64,000 nt of DNA from Deltaproteobacteria bacterium (GTDB lineage: Bacteria; Desulfobacterota; DSM-4660; Desulfatiglandales; Desulfatiglandaceae), in assembly GCA_021737785.1 (NCBI GenBank), contig JAIPDI010000026.1:1-64000 (forward strand). The letters run 5' to 3'. Positions 44,944-52,308 of this stretch are shown piece by piece. Positions within the stretch are counted from its first letter, which is position 1. Every line of letters starts with the position of its first letter. The notes under the pieces are model-generated. The model saw only the letters and a program-made list of their open reading frames with translations. It did not search any database and had not been told where the DNA came from. Both the position numbers and the translations under genes were made by a program.

Positions 44944-46362
44944 ATGAATAAAGAGAGCATCCGATGGGTTATTTTATTCATGGCGTTGATGGCCGGATTC
45001 TACTGGATCGACCAGAGCCAGTGGTTTCAGGAGATCTTATTGGACAGGCTCGCCCATGGGATCACGACCGTCACTATCCGGGCGCTGTCATTTTTCGGCG
45101 CCCATCTGAAGCAGGCGGGTTCGACGGTAATCACCGGAGCAGGCAGAATTGAGGTGGCCAGATCGTGCACAGGGAGTTTTGTCTTCATGATGTTTGCAGC
45201 CGCCGTCATCCCCTTTCCATCCCCATGGAAGTGGCGGGTTAAAGGTCTTTTCTTCGGCCTGGCTGCGCTTATGGTCCTGAACCTGTTTCGAACCTTCATG
45301 ATCGTGCTGGTGGGGTCCCGGTTCCCTAACGCCATACAGACCTTTCACGTCATTATCGGCCAGATCATTGTGATTGCGGGGATGACAACGGTCTTCCTGT
45401 GGTGGGCAAAGCACCCCCGGCAAGCTCCGCAGATCTCATTTTTCAGCAATAACAGACAGATCTTCCGTGCGGTAGTCCTCTTTTGCGTCGGCTACCTGTG
45501 TGGATTCTGGCTCTACCGGGCATTCCTCGAAAGCCCGGCCGGCCTTTTTGTCAAACATATGGTTGAGGTCCATACCTTCCGGATTCTCTCGCTCCTGAAC
45601 GAGACCTTTCTGCAGGGCCGCCTGTCACAGATTTCCGCCGCCCCGGTCAAACTCGTAGACGGCTGTCTATCGAGCCCGATGGTGGTGCTTTTTTTGGCCG
45701 TTGTCGTGGCCTGGCCGACCCGATGGTGGAAACGCGCCCTCATTATTCTCACTGGATTTATCCCCTTCTTCTATGGGTACCACTTGCTCCGGGCGATCCT
45801 GGTCTCTCTCAGCCTCGGCATCCAGTCAAAAGAGGTCAACTTCGCCTATAATTTTTATGGCCAGCTAATCCTTGTCATCGCCCTTTTCGCCTGGGCAGCC
45901 TACCTGTGGTGTTTCAGGTATAAATCGATTTCGTGCCGCAAATTCCTCACGCTTCTTGTGCCAAGTAGTCTCCTTGGCCTGTCACTCGCCCTGGGACTGG
46001 GGTGGCTGATGCGTTGTTTTTTGATCCCCTTTCTGACCATGCAGATTTCAGGCACACCGCTTCTCTCCCACGATCCGGAACAGATGGTCAGCCTCATGTT
46101 GGATCTCCAGGTTTTTATCTGGGTATCCCTGATCGGATCCACGCCAGGCCTTTCCCTGGCCAGAAAATGCTGGTTCGCCCTGTCGGGCATAACGGCCGCC
46201 TTCCTGCTTCTGGTGGTCGCCGTCCTGCTTATCGAGATTTTTCATTTATCGCCTCACAAGGGCATGTTCAAACTGGCGGTCGTTCTACTGCCGTTTGCGG
46301 CCTATTATATCTCCTTTCTATATCGCAGAGACACGGGTAACGATACGGCAGGCGACACGTGA
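44944..46362 (+). CDS. Exosortase-family protein with tandem exosortase modules
   Basis: 472 residues, about 12 or more membrane helices. Module 1 has the complete exosortase triad: C75 in RSCTGS, R116 in LNLFRTF and H135 in QTFHVIIGQ. Module 2 repeats the layout 167 residues on, with C241 in DGCLSSP, R283 in HLLRAIL and, at the histidine position, Y302 in AYNFYGQ. A third, triad-less module may occupy about 370-460. The N-terminus and spacing resemble exosortase H, the family associated with IPTL-CTERM targets, and an IPTL-CTERM gene lies 5 kb away. It would cleave and attach surface proteins at the inner membrane. Confidence 0.85.
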   Translation: MNKESIRWVILFMALMAGFYWIDQSQWFQEILLDRLAHGITTVTIRALSFFGAHLKQAGSTVITGAGRIEVARSCTGSFVFMMFAAAVIPFPSPWKWRVKGLFFGLAALMVLNLFRTFMIVLVGSRFPNAIQTFHVIIGQIIVIAGMTTVFLWWAKHPRQAPQISFFSNNRQIFRAVVLFCVGYLCGFWLYRAFLESPAGLFVKHMVEVHTFRILSLLNETFLQGRLSQISAAPVKLVDGCLSSPMVVLFLAVVVAWPTRWWKRALIILTGFIPFFYGYHLLRAILVSLSLGIQSKEVNFAYNFYGQLILVIALFAWAAYLWCFRYKSISCRKFLTLLVPSSLLGLSLALGLGWLMRCFLIPFLTMQISGTPLLSHDPEQMVSLMLDLQVFIWVSLIGSTPGLSLARKCWFALSGITAAFLLLVVAVLLIEIFHLSPHKGMFKLAVVLLPFAAYYISFLYRRDTGNDTAGDT

Positions 46363-46435
46363 CGTTTTATTGATATCCACATTTCTTCACCATGGCGGGT
46401 TTAGTGAAATCGGGCTTCAGTGCCAGGATAAAAAC

Positions 46436-48211
46436 ATGGGACAAAAGGCTCCTCCGCAACCCATCCCAGATGGCCTGAGGGCAAGCCGTTCCGCAATGCA
46501 AGAAGCAAAGGAACCCTGTGCCGGCAAGACGTTGCTGGTCATTTTTTTGCTGGCCCTGGCCCTTCTTGCACTTGCCGGTCAATCAAGCCTTTGGGATCGG
46601 GACGAACCGCTTTTTGCACGAACGGCCTGTGAAATGCTTCAATCGGGGGATTGGCGCTTACCTGCCGTAAACGGCGGGGTTCGTCCTCAAAAACCCCCCC
46701 TTGCCTTCTGGGCCATGGCCGGCAGCATGGCCCTGTTCGGCATAAACGCCTTGGCCGCGCGGTTGCCCGCGGTTATTTCACTGGCGGCAACAGGATGGCT
46801 GGTATTCCTGATGGGAAGACTCCTCTTTTCTCCCATGGTCGGTTTCTGGGCCTGCGTGATGCTCATGAGTTCCGCCATGTCCATGTTTCTGGGGAGCGCA
46901 GCCATGGTCGACGGTCCCCTTCTGGCCTTTATTAGTCTGGCCATGTACGCCCATCTCAAGGGACTTCACCAGCCAAAACGATGGTATGTGTACTGGCCGG
47001 TTTTGGCGACGGCCCTGGGGTGCGCCGAACTGACCAAACATCCGGTAGGCATGGCAACCGCAGCGCCGGCCATGCTCTGCAGCACCTGGCTGCTGCGTAA
47101 GGATATGAAAATCCCAAGGACTTACTGGCTGGGCCTTTTTCTCGCTTTTCTGGTGGGGTATGGTTTTCACCAGGCATGGTATATTCCGGTCCGTAACATG
47201 GCGCCCGGATTTGGGGAGGAAATGTATGGCCGCCAGATTTTTGATCGCATCTTTACAGCGATGGAAGGTCATGGGGTCGAAAGTCTGTTAGGCTACCTGC
47301 TCCTACTCCCTTTTTATGCCCCCATTCTATTGGTTGGGTTCGCCCCCTGGTCTACATTTCTTCCTGCCGGAATATCGGCATTTGTCCATCGCCATATAGG
47401 AAGTCGACCCGCCAGGATTTTCGTTATTTCATGGATTTTGCCCATTTTGGCGCTTTTCACCCTGGCTGTCACAAAACTGCCTCATTACATATTCCCGATA
47501 TTTCCTCCAGTAGCGCTAATAGTGGCGGGGCTACTGGAGGCCTGGCGGAAAGGTCAGCTAAACCAAAAGGACCGTTATTGGCTGAGGTTCGGGGCCTGGC
47601 TTTACGCCCCGCTTGTGTCTGGTTTTGGAGCAGCCCTTTGTGTGGCGTCCGTTCTGATGGGAGAGGGGATATGGCGGTTTGTGGGGGTTCTCCCGGGTTT
47701 GCTGATTGTGCCATCCTGCATATATGGATTTCGCCTGATTCGGGCGGAAAAACTGCAAAAAGCCGCGTGGTCTTTCCTCATGGGAACTCCTCTGCTTTTG
47801 TTGACAGCGGCCATGCTGACCCTGCCGGCTATCGAACCGATAATCAAGATCTCGCCGGTATTGGCCGAAACCATTCGGGCCAAGCGCTCGACGGATGAAC
47901 CGGTTGCCATGTGCGGATACATGGAACCCAGCTTCATTTTCTATATGGATCTTCCTGCGACCCAGTCAATTGCCGCGCTCAAGCCGGATCCCGAGGCCCT
48001 GCATGCCTGGGCTATAGGGCCTGGCGCGGGGTGGTTGGTGGTATACGATTCGCTCTGGAAAAAGATGATTGACCGCTTCGGCCCCGCTGAAAGGGTCCGA
48101 AGCCTGATGATTGTGCCGGTACTCAATCCCAATGACAGGGCCAGGGAGGACCACGTGCGGGTGGTTCACCGGCTGCCCCGACTGAACTCACCTATCAACC
48201 GGCCTCTTTAG
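46436..48211 (+). CDS. ArnT/PMT-like membrane glycosyltransferase
   Basis: 591 residues from the ATG at 46436, after AGGATAAAA. About 11-12 membrane helices. The catalytic acidic pair is in SLWDRDEPLFARTACEML near the first periplasmic loop, with RPQKPPLAFWAMA, and FTLAVTKLPHYIFPIFPP is the late family motif. Such enzymes take a sugar from an undecaprenyl carrier on the outer face of the inner membrane. It lies 73 bp after the exosortase gene, so glycosylation of the sorted protein or of a surface glycan is a reasonable guess. Confidence 0.85.
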   Translation: MGQKAPPQPIPDGLRASRSAMQEAKEPCAGKTLLVIFLLALALLALAGQSSLWDRDEPLFARTACEMLQSGDWRLPAVNGGVRPQKPPLAFWAMAGSMALFGINALAARLPAVISLAATGWLVFLMGRLLFSPMVGFWACVMLMSSAMSMFLGSAAMVDGPLLAFISLAMYAHLKGLHQPKRWYVYWPVLATALGCAELTKHPVGMATAAPAMLCSTWLLRKDMKIPRTYWLGLFLAFLVGYGFHQAWYIPVRNMAPGFGEEMYGRQIFDRIFTAMEGHGVESLLGYLLLLPFYAPILLVGFAPWSTFLPAGISAFVHRHIGSRPARIFVISWILPILALFTLAVTKLPHYIFPIFPPVALIVAGLLEAWRKGQLNQKDRYWLRFGAWLYAPLVSGFGAALCVASVLMGEGIWRFVGVLPGLLIVPSCIYGFRLIRAEKLQKAAWSFLMGTPLLLLTAAMLTLPAIEPIIKISPVLAETIRAKRSTDEPVAMCGYMEPSFIFYMDLPATQSIAALKPDPEALHAWAIGPGAGWLVVYDSLWKKMIDRFGPAERVRSLMIVPVLNPNDRAREDHVRVVHRLPRLNSPINRPL

Positions 48212-48235: not shown

Positions 48236-49801
48236 ATGTATTCAATTCACGCGCAGAGGAGGGCATTACCTCCCTGGAAAAGAGACGAGGTTTGGCTGCG
48301 GCGAACCCTCTGGCTGGTGGGCGGGTTGCTTCTCTGGCGCGCCTTTTACGTCTGCGTTGTTCCGCTGGACCTCATTTCCGATGAGGCCTACTACTGGGAT
48401 TGGTCGAGACGACTGGACTGGTGTTATTACAGCAAGCCGCCCATGGTCGCCTGGATCATCAACATGGCCACCCAGGTGGGCGGCCATACGCCGTGGGCTG
48501 TCCGGATGCCTGCGGTAATTTTGGGAACAACCGGGCCATTGTTCATATATGCGTTGGGCAGCCGGATTTATGGAGCGAGGACCGGTTTCTGGGCGACAGC
48601 CGCCGCGGCAGCCACACCGGGTAACAGTGCATTGAGCTTGATTATGACCATCGATGCCCCTTTCATGTTCTGCTGGGGTGCGGCGATTTATGCATTCTGG
48701 CGATTGCTGGAGCGGCGTCGCGGCACAATTTTATGGGCGGTTGTCACAGCATTTGCCGTGGGACTGGGGCTGCTGACCAAGCAGACCATGATTGCTTTCT
48801 TTCCGCTTGCAGGGCTCTTCTTGCTCCTCAGTCCCAACCATAGGGCGGAGCTGGCCAGGCCTCTGGTCTGGTTAACAGCCCTGGGCGCGCTGGCTTTTCT
48901 CATGCCGATAGTATGGTGGAACATGCATCACGGGTGGATTACCTTGCAGCATACGAGCGGGCATTTCATGGGAGTCGGGTTTTCGGCGACGTCACGGCTA
49001 CTGAACTCGGCCGAATATCTGGTGGGCCAGGGGGGCATCATCTCTCCAATCACCGGCTTGCTGGTTCTTGTTGTGGTCTCTTCCGGGTTGGTCACATTGA
49101 AACGGCTCAATACGCCGGAACAATATCTGGTTTGGTTCAGCGCCGTTCCCCTCGGCGGCGTGGTCATCCTGAGTCTGTTTCAACGAATAGAGCCGAATTG
49201 GCCAGGCCCTTTTTATGCATCAGGGATCGTTCTTCTGGCGGGATGGGCGACCGGAAAAGTCGATCTCGGCCGTCGTCAGGCTCCTCTGCGTCGGTACTTC
49301 CTGCCTGCGGTGATTGTTGGCGTGGTCTTCTGTATGATCACCTATGCCTTGCCCTTTGTGCTCCCCCTTCTTGGCCTTCAGGGGTCACGCCTTGACCCCA
49401 CGGGCCGTTTCAGGGGCTGGCGTCAGTTGGCGCAGGAGGTGGACGGGCAGATGGCGACATTTCCCAGACCGAAACAAACGGCCATAATTACAACAACAGG
49501 CAGAGGCACGGCCAGCGAGCTGGCATTCTATATGGAAGGCAACCCTTATGTGTTCCCTTATAATAATACCGGCCTCGTCAACTCCCAATATGATGTGTGG
49601 GGTTGGCCCAAAGACGTCTCAGGCAAAGACATCATGCTCATCACGTATGCACATGGAAAGATCCCGGAGCCTTTGAGGAAACGCTTCCAACATCTTGAGC
49701 AATCGGCTGTTTTGACCAGAACCCTGGGGCCTGACCGGGAATTTACCTACCAGATTTGGCGTGGGGTCGGTTTTCAGGGGCTACCCAATACCCAGGATTA
49801 A
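48236..49801 (+). CDS. Glycosyltransferase family 39/PMT_2-like membrane protein
   Basis: 521 residues with about 11 membrane helices. SDEAYYWDWSRRLDWCYYSKPPMVAW (residues about 42-67) is the PMT_2 acidic motif plus acceptor region; LLTKQTMIAFFPLAGL and a C-terminal soluble domain follow. Transfers a lipid-linked sugar on the periplasmic side. It is 24 bp downstream of the ArnT-like gene, third gene in the exosortase unit. Convergent with the following membrane protein gene. Confidence 0.85.
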   Translation: MYSIHAQRRALPPWKRDEVWLRRTLWLVGGLLLWRAFYVCVVPLDLISDEAYYWDWSRRLDWCYYSKPPMVAWIINMATQVGGHTPWAVRMPAVILGTTGPLFIYALGSRIYGARTGFWATAAAAATPGNSALSLIMTIDAPFMFCWGAAIYAFWRLLERRRGTILWAVVTAFAVGLGLLTKQTMIAFFPLAGLFLLLSPNHRAELARPLVWLTALGALAFLMPIVWWNMHHGWITLQHTSGHFMGVGFSATSRLLNSAEYLVGQGGIISPITGLLVLVVVSSGLVTLKRLNTPEQYLVWFSAVPLGGVVILSLFQRIEPNWPGPFYASGIVLLAGWATGKVDLGRRQAPLRRYFLPAVIVGVVFCMITYALPFVLPLLGLQGSRLDPTGRFRGWRQLAQEVDGQMATFPRPKQTAIITTTGRGTASELAFYMEGNPYVFPYNNTGLVNSQYDVWGWPKDVSGKDIMLITYAHGKIPEPLRKRFQHLEQSAVLTRTLGPDREFTYQIWRGVGFQGLPNTQD

Positions 49802-49869: not shown

Positions 49870-51414
49870 TTACTTCTGAGCGGATGGGAGGGGGATTAAG
49901 AGAGCCAGAGAGGTGGTTGAAAAAGCCACCAGGCTGTAGGCAACCCAGGGCAACGGATCCATCGGATAGGCCCGCGTCAGCAGGGTGCAGAGGGCCATGA
50001 CCAGGATAGGCATGAGACATGCCTCGGCAGCAGCCCCGGCCAATCCGACGGTGTCTGCCGGATGGACAGGCCGCCGGACCTCCAGCAGAATAAAAGCTGA
50101 ACCGAGGGCGGCCATCATCCACTGTGCGTTCGGGAATCTGCCGATGCAGACGGCGCCGATGCCGCAGATCAGGGTCCCTCCCCCATAGACGCCTCTGAGG
50201 GTTTTACCAGGCCCATCTGACACTGTCGCCTTCAGGAGCACTCCTCCGAGTATGATGAGTTTAAGCCCGACCCAGACGGTGACCGCCGCACTGAAGGATT
50301 GGTTCTCCCACAGGTCTTGTGGAAAGGCAACTGCACAAAACAAGATGATCTCCGCCAGGAGGAGTGCGGAAAGAAAGGGCCGCCCCCTTGCCAGTCTGAA
50401 GATCATCCTCCAGTGGGCGCGAAGCGCATGGGCCCATCGAAGCCAAGAGGCCTGGACCAAGGGGATGAGTGCCAGGGGCAAAAGGGCCTTAAGGTTCCAA
50501 TCCCAATGCGGAAAGAAGAAAATCCGGAGAAGCACCGTTGCCGCAACGGCGCATATGGCCAAGACAGCCCACAGACCCATGAAGCCCGGATAATGTTTCA
50601 GGATCTGGCTGCCGGCAGAGGATATGTTCTCTTGATTCGGTTTTTGCTTCGTAAACAAAAAGAGGGCGGCCGTGAGCAGACTGGTTGCGGCCAGGGAAAG
50701 GAACGTGGCAATAATTTCGCGCCAAGGAGAGACCAGCACATCGAAAAGATAACCGTTTACCGCCAGGGCCATGGCGGCCACGAGAAAGAAGAGCTGGACC
50801 CAGCCCAGCATCATCCCGGCGAGTGGCCTTCTTCCGGCGAGGAGGCTTTGGGCCTTTCCGGCAAACCCGATAAAGAAAACCACCGTGAGGCCCAGGATCA
50901 CCATCTGTTTCAAGAGAAGAGACCATCCATCTGGCAACCATTGAAATAATACATTGAACCATGGATGTATTCCGTTGGTCCCCATCGCCGAAGCGACGCC
51001 GGCAAAAGGAAGAATAGCCATCCATGTTCGAAAGCCGGCACCGGGGAGAATCCGAATCAGAATGATCACTACTGCGAGGAGGGCTCCGAAAGCGGCTGTT
51101 CGAGCAACCATTTCGGTGAGGTCCGTCCCGGATCCCGGCCCCCAATACAAAAAGAGAAGGACCCCTTCGGCGCACCAGAGAAGGGCCGCCACCGGCCGGG
51201 AACATATCTGCCGCACTGCCCGTGCGCAATCTTTGAGATGGAAGGCGCCTGCCACCCATGCCAGGCCTGCGGCCTGCAGAAAGGGAACGGCAATATATTG
51301 AACGATTATCTCTAAGCGAAGGTCAACGGTACGCCAGACAAGGATGAAAAGGATGCCATGGGCCAAGGCAAAGAAAGCGGTGAGCAAAAGCCACAAGCGT
51401 GCCACTGTGTTCAT
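49870..51414 (-). CDS. Polytopic membrane protein of unknown function
   Basis: 514 residues, about 14 hydrophobic helices spread over the whole length and short loops. No recognised family; the few charged loop motifs (GTNGIHPWFNVLFQWLPDG and RIFFFPHWDWNLKALLP) are aromatic-rich like periplasmic loops of glycan or lipid enzymes. It lies 84 bp downstream of the IPTL-CTERM gene on the same strand, so it is probably cotranscribed with it and could serve its export, modification or anchoring. Confidence 0.75.
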   Translation of the reverse strand: MNTVARLWLLLTAFFALAHGILFILVWRTVDLRLEIIVQYIAVPFLQAAGLAWVAGAFHLKDCARAVRQICSRPVAALLWCAEGVLLFLYWGPGSGTDLTEMVARTAAFGALLAVVIILIRILPGAGFRTWMAILPFAGVASAMGTNGIHPWFNVLFQWLPDGWSLLLKQMVILGLTVVFFIGFAGKAQSLLAGRRPLAGMMLGWVQLFFLVAAMALAVNGYLFDVLVSPWREIIATFLSLAATSLLTAALFLFTKQKPNQENISSAGSQILKHYPGFMGLWAVLAICAVAATVLLRIFFFPHWDWNLKALLPLALIPLVQASWLRWAHALRAHWRMIFRLARGRPFLSALLLAEIILFCAVAFPQDLWENQSFSAAVTVWVGLKLIILGGVLLKATVSDGPGKTLRGVYGGGTLICGIGAVCIGRFPNAQWMMAALGSAFILLEVRRPVHPADTVGLAGAAAEACLMPILVMALCTLLTRAYPMDPLPWVAYSLVAFSTTSLALLIPLPSAQK

Positions 51415-51498: not shown

Positions 51499-52308
51499 TC
51501 AGGCGGATGCAGGAGAGGCATTGTTGCGCAAGAAACGGAGTCCCACGATCAACAGGATCAAGGTCATGACGATCAATCCCCACTCGGTCAGTGTGGGAAT
51601 CGCCGGTGCAAGGGGGAGACCTGAGATCGGGGGCCCCTGCAGGAATTCCGGGTCCGGAATACCATCTCCGTTAATATCAAGAACAATCGCAGGTTGACCA
51701 TGGTCCCCCGTTCCCAGAGGGAGGAGGATCTGGGAATTGGCATCCGCGCCGCCACAGGTATTGATCACCCCAAGGGAAGCGAGGTTGGTTACGCCGATAT
51801 AGCCATCCCTTTCCGCCAGTGAGAGGATCACATCCACCGGACCTGAGCGTTTGGTACCGACCAAATGCACCTGGTCAAAGGTCGCCTGACCCGCAACCGA
51901 TTTTTCCAGCATCAGGGTACCCACCTCTCCAGGCTTAAACGGGTTTGCGTAGGTCCCTCCGATGGGGTATCCGCCTGAAAATTGATCAACTAAGAATGTC
52001 CGGCCCAGGCTCGAAAAACGATCGTATTTTCCCGCGACAGCGCCCGTCGATTGGGCCTGGATTGTTAATGACGCGGCTGGCTGGCAGTTAGACCATGGGC
52101 TTTGCAGATAGAAATTTGATCCACCCGCCGACTGCGGGTAGGCCTGCTGAGTCGCATCGCCCACATCCACCGAGCCCGGTATTGTGTTGGCATGCATGTT
52201 GGGAGGGCCCAAAAATGGGGGCGTCGCAGCCGATGCGGGCGACGCCATGAAGGCAAGGATAGCGAGAACTGCTGTTACCACACTCAAAGATCTGCCGATT
52301 TGTCTCAT
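51499..52308 (-). CDS. IPTL-CTERM surface protein (exosortase substrate)
   Basis: 269 residues from the ATG at 52308, eight bases after AGGAGG. Signal peptide over residues 1-27 (SPASA cleavage), then a secreted beta-rich domain containing a calcium-loop-like DINGDGIPD. The last 33 residues begin IPTLTEWG at 237, followed by a membrane helix and the basic RFLR cluster, which is the IPTL-CTERM sorting signal. The exosortase would cleave it at the inner membrane. Function of the mature domain is unknown. Confidence 0.9.
   Translation of the reverse strand: MRQIGRSLSVVTAVLAILAFMASPASAATPPFLGPPNMHANTIPGSVDVGDATQQAYPQSAGGSNFYLQSPWSNCQPAASLTIQAQSTGAVAGKYDRFSSLGRTFLVDQFSGGYPIGGTYANPFKPGEVGTLMLEKSVAGQATFDQVHLVGTKRSGPVDVILSLAERDGYIGVTNLASLGVINTCGGADANSQILLPLGTGDHGQPAIVLDINGDGIPDPEFLQGPPISGLPLAPAIPTLTEWGLIVMTLILLIVGLRFLRNNASPASA

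Follow-up and report, generated by a model that had tools for sequence, protein, structure and literature searches.

A gene for a tandem-module exosortase lies in the 45 kb region of the window, by which we mean the whole stretch of 64,000 nucleotides that was analysed. Its product (P0001) falls into three parts, namely a first exosortase module with an intact triad, a second module in which the triad has changed and a C-terminal unit of four transmembrane (TM) helices (Table 1). Two PMT-type glycosyltransferase genes follow immediately downstream, a neighbourhood absent from the other tandem loci compared, and no gene neighbour is conserved with the tandem gene across those loci. Further along, on the opposite strand, lies a gene for a likely substrate of the enzyme.

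Table 1. Features at the tandem exosortase locus, in window coordinates; residues are numbered along the exosortase
Feature	Coordinates	Strand	Description
Tandem-module exosortase gene	44944..46362, stop included	+	472 aa, ATG start
Module 1	44944..45423	+	Residues 1-160; exosortase module, intact C75-R116-H135
Module 1 triad codons	45166..45348	+	C75 45166-45168; R116 45289-45291; H135 45346-45348
Module 2	45436..45948	+	Residues 165-335; second exosortase module, C241-R283-Y302, His lost
Second-site codons	45664..45849	+	C241 45664-45666; H280 45781-45783; R283 45790-45792; Y302 45847-45849
Third part	45949..46359	+	Residues 336-472; four-TM unit without triad residues
PMT-type glycosyltransferase genes	46295-48211; 48236-49801	+	
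Hydrophobic protein, probably a polytopic membrane protein	49870-51414	-	514 aa
Likely substrate	51499..52308	-	269 aa; signal-peptide-like N-terminus and C-terminal IPTL-CTERM signal; 5 kb from the exosortase gene
IPTL-CTERM signal	51502..51600	-	IPTLTEWG, hydrophobic helix, then RFLRNN

The protein is a bacterial membrane enzyme whose probable task is to cut and sort surface proteins. By its sequence it is assigned to the exosortase/archaeosortase superfamily, as it exceeds the curated cut-offs of both Pfam PF09721 (Exosortase_EpsH; 33.9 bits, cut-off 25.7) and the NCBIfam superfamily signature TIGR04178 (51 bits, cut-off 23). The best-scoring named family is exosortase H (XrtH, TIGR04177), whose model gives 71 bits for the whole protein, 57 for module 1 and 27 for module 2; these scores lie under the cut-off of 86, and the protein is therefore called XrtH-like here and is not filed as XrtH. 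The C-x-G, N-x-x-R and H-x-x-x-G motifs occur together in module 1 (C75-G77, N113-R116 and H135-G139).

An earlier note on this DNA, made from the letters alone, had proposed that the exosortase is duplicated internally and that its first module alone keeps the C-R-H triad, and this proposal held up. The two sets of positions that it paired, C75-R116-H135 and C241-R283-Y302, are spaced as described, with 41 and 42 residues from Cys to Arg, 19 in both modules from Arg to the third site and a GQ after both. Local alignment of residues 1-165 with 166-330 scores 85, against 33 +/- 6 for shuffled sequences, none of which scored as high in 1000 attempts. When each part is scanned alone with exosortase profiles, as the note had suggested, module 1 matches XrtH with E = 2.2e-15 and module 2 with E = 2.9e-6, and the third part matches no exosortase model. 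A profile of module 1 together with single XrtHs matches one of module 2 over 162 columns at P = 1.6e-13; with the columns reversed as a control, P is 0.43, and none of 100 block-shuffles reaches the score. Because of this profile match and its controls, module 2 is homologous to module 1 over its length, and chance likeness of the two modules is ruled out by the shuffles, reversed profiles and block-shuffles alike.

A frame artefact or an oddity of a single genome is likewise ruled out, since full-length relatives at 30-56% identity keep both the frame and the layout. The survey of homologues for the same duplication, also called for by the note, found the same layout, with the second His likewise missing, in genomes that belong to three families. 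All three parts are also present in G003, G012 and G060, members of the source genome's own family (f1); in family f47 the tandem gene occurs in 11 of 16 genomes, with those of G426 and G392 cut by a contig end, and tandem relatives in a third family (f11) come from G089 and G160. Neither f47 nor f11 is listed in the class of the source genome (G000), and f11 is the sole family of G089's class among the searched genomes; the families thus represent three classes, and the tandem layout is, as judged from the genes compared, conserved across three classes of one phylum. Such conservation makes it likely that the extra units, that is, module 2 and the third part, do a job. A single scan of the genome collection yielded just two members, which the whole-genome search had already brought to light, and no published description of tandem exosortases was found in the open-access literature.

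In a tree, the module 1 sequences form one clade and the module 2 sequences another, with a long branch leading to module 2. One clade per module fits a single ancient duplication or fusion, before the families split, as the origin of all the tandem genes. A recent tandem duplication in the source strain is ruled out, because the clades of both modules span three families. Two XrtH-like genes, at 114-665 and 1286-1810 on the minus strand of G047 contig 223 (L024), lie 0.6 kb apart with C-R-H intact in both and a 211-aa reading frame without a Pfam match between them; the idea that this pair represents the unfused ancestor is unsupported, as both fall among single XrtHs in the tree.

A third module lacking every triad residue had also been suggested. 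The lack of triad residues is correct, and the segment is better seen as a C-terminal four-TM unit common to extended XrtH-like enzymes. Direct sequence comparison with modules 1 and 2 gives no match, and comparison with the module 1 profile is borderline (P = 0.046, with 3 of 100 block-shuffles scoring as high). The profile of the C-terminal extension found in the longer one-module XrtH-like proteins L072, L061 and L012 matches the third part at P = 0.004, and this extension in turn matches the module 1 profile at P = 0.0055, a score that no block-shuffle equals. In AlphaFold2 models, the helices of the third part (331-369, 378-398, 405-433 and 439-464; 39, 21, 29 and 26 residues) have nearly the same lengths as those of the L072 extension (172-211, 221-241, 247-277 and 281-306; 40, 21, 31 and 26 residues). 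The third part is thus probably the same kind of unit as in these three enzymes, probably either a degenerate third repeat or an accessory unit, and the profile scores weakly suggest, with a helix pattern that is consistent, that it descends from an exosortase module. Besides, a 605-aa XrtH-like exosortase on G386 contig 114 (L077) has extra membrane helices and ends in an SPFH/Band 7 domain, all within a single frame.

The AlphaFold2 model of the tandem protein, built from 15 sequences, is weak and shallow (mean pLDDT 74, pTM 0.51) and is poorest around residues 225-243 and 290-302, that is, at the second site. Module 1 appears in it as four predicted TM helices, a periplasmic amphipathic helix and a beta-hairpin. 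Over the family, predicted cytoplasmic loops carry ~2-4 Lys or Arg per 8-21 positions, and predicted periplasmic segments carry fewer per length. Positive residues mark the predicted cytoplasmic loops of all three four-TM units, so the units are predicted to point the same way, which would put both sites on one and the same face. No relative turned up when PDB sequences were searched with the family profile; fold searches of the PDB and of viral models gave no match at E <= 0.001, a result made uninformative by the weak query models, and the Foldseek list contained only scores common for helical bundles, again from a weak query model.

The C, R and H of module 1 are invariant in every tandem relative that covers this module. 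As to module 2, the note had described a catalytic His-to-Tyr change that perhaps leaves a pseudo-active site. The histidine is indeed lost: in 17 sequences, which include two gene fragments (from G013 and G426) besides full-length proteins, the third site (302) is Tyr in 13, Arg in three and Phe in one, and a complete C-R-H triad is found in none. The term pseudo-active needs qualifying, since C241 and R283 are invariant in all intact copies and a histidine, H280, stands near R283. This residue, three positions before R283, occupies the place of the Asn in N-x-x-R; it is present in all 14 copies with Tyr or Phe at 302 and in none of the three with Arg (L089, G089 and G160), which represent two separate lineages. 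With two independent changes behind it, the covariation of positions 280 and 302 is a hint, not proof, that they belong to one pocket. The G013 fragments (L005 and L011, contig 21, 115-3305) belong to a tandem gene that is interrupted, where the second Cys motif begins, by an insertion that carries a DDE transposase (PF01609) and is flanked by the 12-bp direct repeat CTGGTGGAAGGA.

In EpsH proteins, six residues are invariant within the motifs C-x-G, N-x-x-R and H-x-x-x-G (Haft 2006, PMC1569441). Of these, the Cys and the Arg survive in module 2, as does the Gly of H-x-x-x-G in most copies; missing are the His, the Gly of C-x-G and, outside L089, the Asn of N-x-x-R. The invariance of its Cys and Arg, and the H280 that accompanies every Tyr or Phe at 302, speak against a simply dead module. 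Constrained at its two remaining active-site positions, module 2 would most likely contribute to the site for substrate or acceptor, paired with module 1 in a fixed pseudo-dimer.

The main rival to this pseudo-dimer, which we hold to be unlikely, is a second working site, rearranged as C241-H280-R283-Y302 or, where 302 is Arg, as C-R-R in the manner of archaeosortase A (ArtA), so that one chain would house two chemistries, with site 1 cleaving and site 2 transferring, for example. The invariance of C241 and R283 and the pairing of H280 with Tyr or Phe, against its absence from the two lineages with Arg, speak for it, as does the archaeal enzyme itself: ArtA requires Cys-Arg-Arg, as judged from mutants of C173, R214 and R253 (summarised in PMC9263693), and an Arg at the third site can thus be catalytic and need not mean that function is lost. 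However, the two EpsH-invariant residues of C-x-G and N-x-x-R that module 2 lacks, the Asn being retained only in L089, argue against a working site, and the covariation comprises only two independent changes. Rather unlikely, too, is an enzyme with two different active sites in the same orientation, in which C-R-H cleaves and C-H-R-Y or C-R-R transfers to or holds the acceptor; if true, such a two-site enzyme would be a built-in two-step machine for cleavage and transfer.

It is similarly doubtful that module 2 is a structural remnant which lost its His by drift and keeps Cys and Arg for packing only. The absence of a third-site His from 17 of 17 sequences covering it, the loss of three of the six EpsH invariants and the long branch to module 2 would all fit such a decay, but C241 and R283 stay the same in three classes, against variation at many other module 2 positions, and a strictly conserved Cys without a function would be unusual.

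The likely substrate encoded at the locus scores 20.7 bits against the IPTL-CTERM model TIGR04174 in the protein scan (cut-off 20.5) and 24.9 bits in the six-frame scan, and it also resembles NF033207 (midcut-by-XrtH), below that model's cut-off. Adjoining its gene, on the same strand, is the gene for the 514-aa membrane protein, which has no Pfam or NCBIfam match. Three matches to IPTL-CTERM, the XrtH target signal, exceed the cut-off in the source genome, where a second exosortase that might handle IPTL proteins was sought and only the tandem protein was detected. On contig 70 of this genome (L032), a repetitive protein with an open frame of 1852 aa, of which our reading covers the last ~510 aa, ends in an IPTL-CTERM signal and is likely a very large substrate.

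Across the relatives, the presence of IPTL-CTERM proteins follows that of an XrtH gene, whether tandem or single. Of 46 f1 genomes, 10 have IPTL proteins and an XrtH-like gene (tandem or single), two the XrtH-like gene alone, two IPTL proteins alone and 32 neither, so that IPTL proteins occur in 10 of 12 genomes with an XrtH-like gene against 2 of 34 without, and in f47 they occur in 9 of 11 genomes with the tandem gene against 1 of 5 without; these are raw counts that make no correction for common descent, and genes may be missed where a genome is incomplete. G012 has 27 IPTL matches and the tandem enzyme as its sole detected exosortase, and G465 (68% complete) has IPTL matches with no exosortase detected. 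Three of the five f47 genomes without the tandem gene have another exosortase and no detected IPTL protein, and two of these three exosortases are about as long as an XrtA-EpsI fusion. That the true substrates are other than IPTL-CTERM proteins, the co-occurrence being shared ancestry, seems improbable to us: the protein does score below the XrtH cut-off and no IPTL protein was detected beside the tandem genes of G003, G334 and G392, but G000, G012 and G060 have IPTL proteins with no exosortase detected besides the tandem one, and the f47 genomes with only another exosortase show none.

Taken together, we consider it reasonably probable that the protein is an IPTL-CTERM exosortase of the XrtH kind which forms an intramolecular pseudo-dimer, with module 1 catalytic and module 2 conserved but altered. 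The assignment of catalysis to module 1 draws on its conservation and on analogy with the work on EpsH and ArtA. An IPTL-CTERM protein would be exported and would then stay anchored in the inner membrane through its C-terminal helix; C75, assisted by R116 and H135, would attack at the motif from the periplasmic side to give an acyl-enzyme, and the product would be released or handed to an acceptor. Module 2, with Cys and Arg and no His, most likely would not cut alone and would act as a permanently attached partner, shaping or completing the site for substrate or acceptor, while the third unit would probably pack as a scaffold, as it may in extended one-module XrtH-like enzymes.

To our knowledge, target recognition by exosortases and the acceptors of transfer are largely unknown. 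A natural fused pair of one intact and one altered site fixes both stoichiometry and orientation, and thereby offers a direct way to ask if exosortases work as dimers and if the handling of substrate or acceptor falls to a second site; the protein's size makes it a reasonable cryo-EM target. The family also marks a gap in NCBIfam, which has no specific model for what is probably an IPTL-CTERM exosortase family present in three classes.

Among known systems, exosortase A/EpsH (PF09721, TIGR02602), with at least eight TM helices (PMC1569441), shares with module 1 the catalytic motifs C-x-G, N-x-x-R and H-x-x-x-G. Its extra helices precede the catalytic part, whereas those of the tandem protein come after it, and the Pfam match of the latter begins at profile position 118 of 254. 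ArtA, of the same superfamily, has the Cys-Arg-Arg seen in module 2 of L089, G089 and G160, but it is archaeal and recognises another target signal, and the tandem protein scores far below the ArtA cut-off. XrtH (TIGR04177), with its IPTL-CTERM targets (TIGR04174), resembles the tandem enzyme in the C-R-H triad of module 1 and in the IPTL-CTERM proteins of the genome; its model describes one module of 158 positions, to which the tandem protein adds an altered second module and a third four-TM unit. The extended XrtH-like enzymes (L072, L061 and L012, and L077 with its SPFH domain) likewise have a catalytic module followed by a C-terminal four-TM unit, and what sets the tandem enzyme apart from them is the second, Cys-bearing exosortase module.
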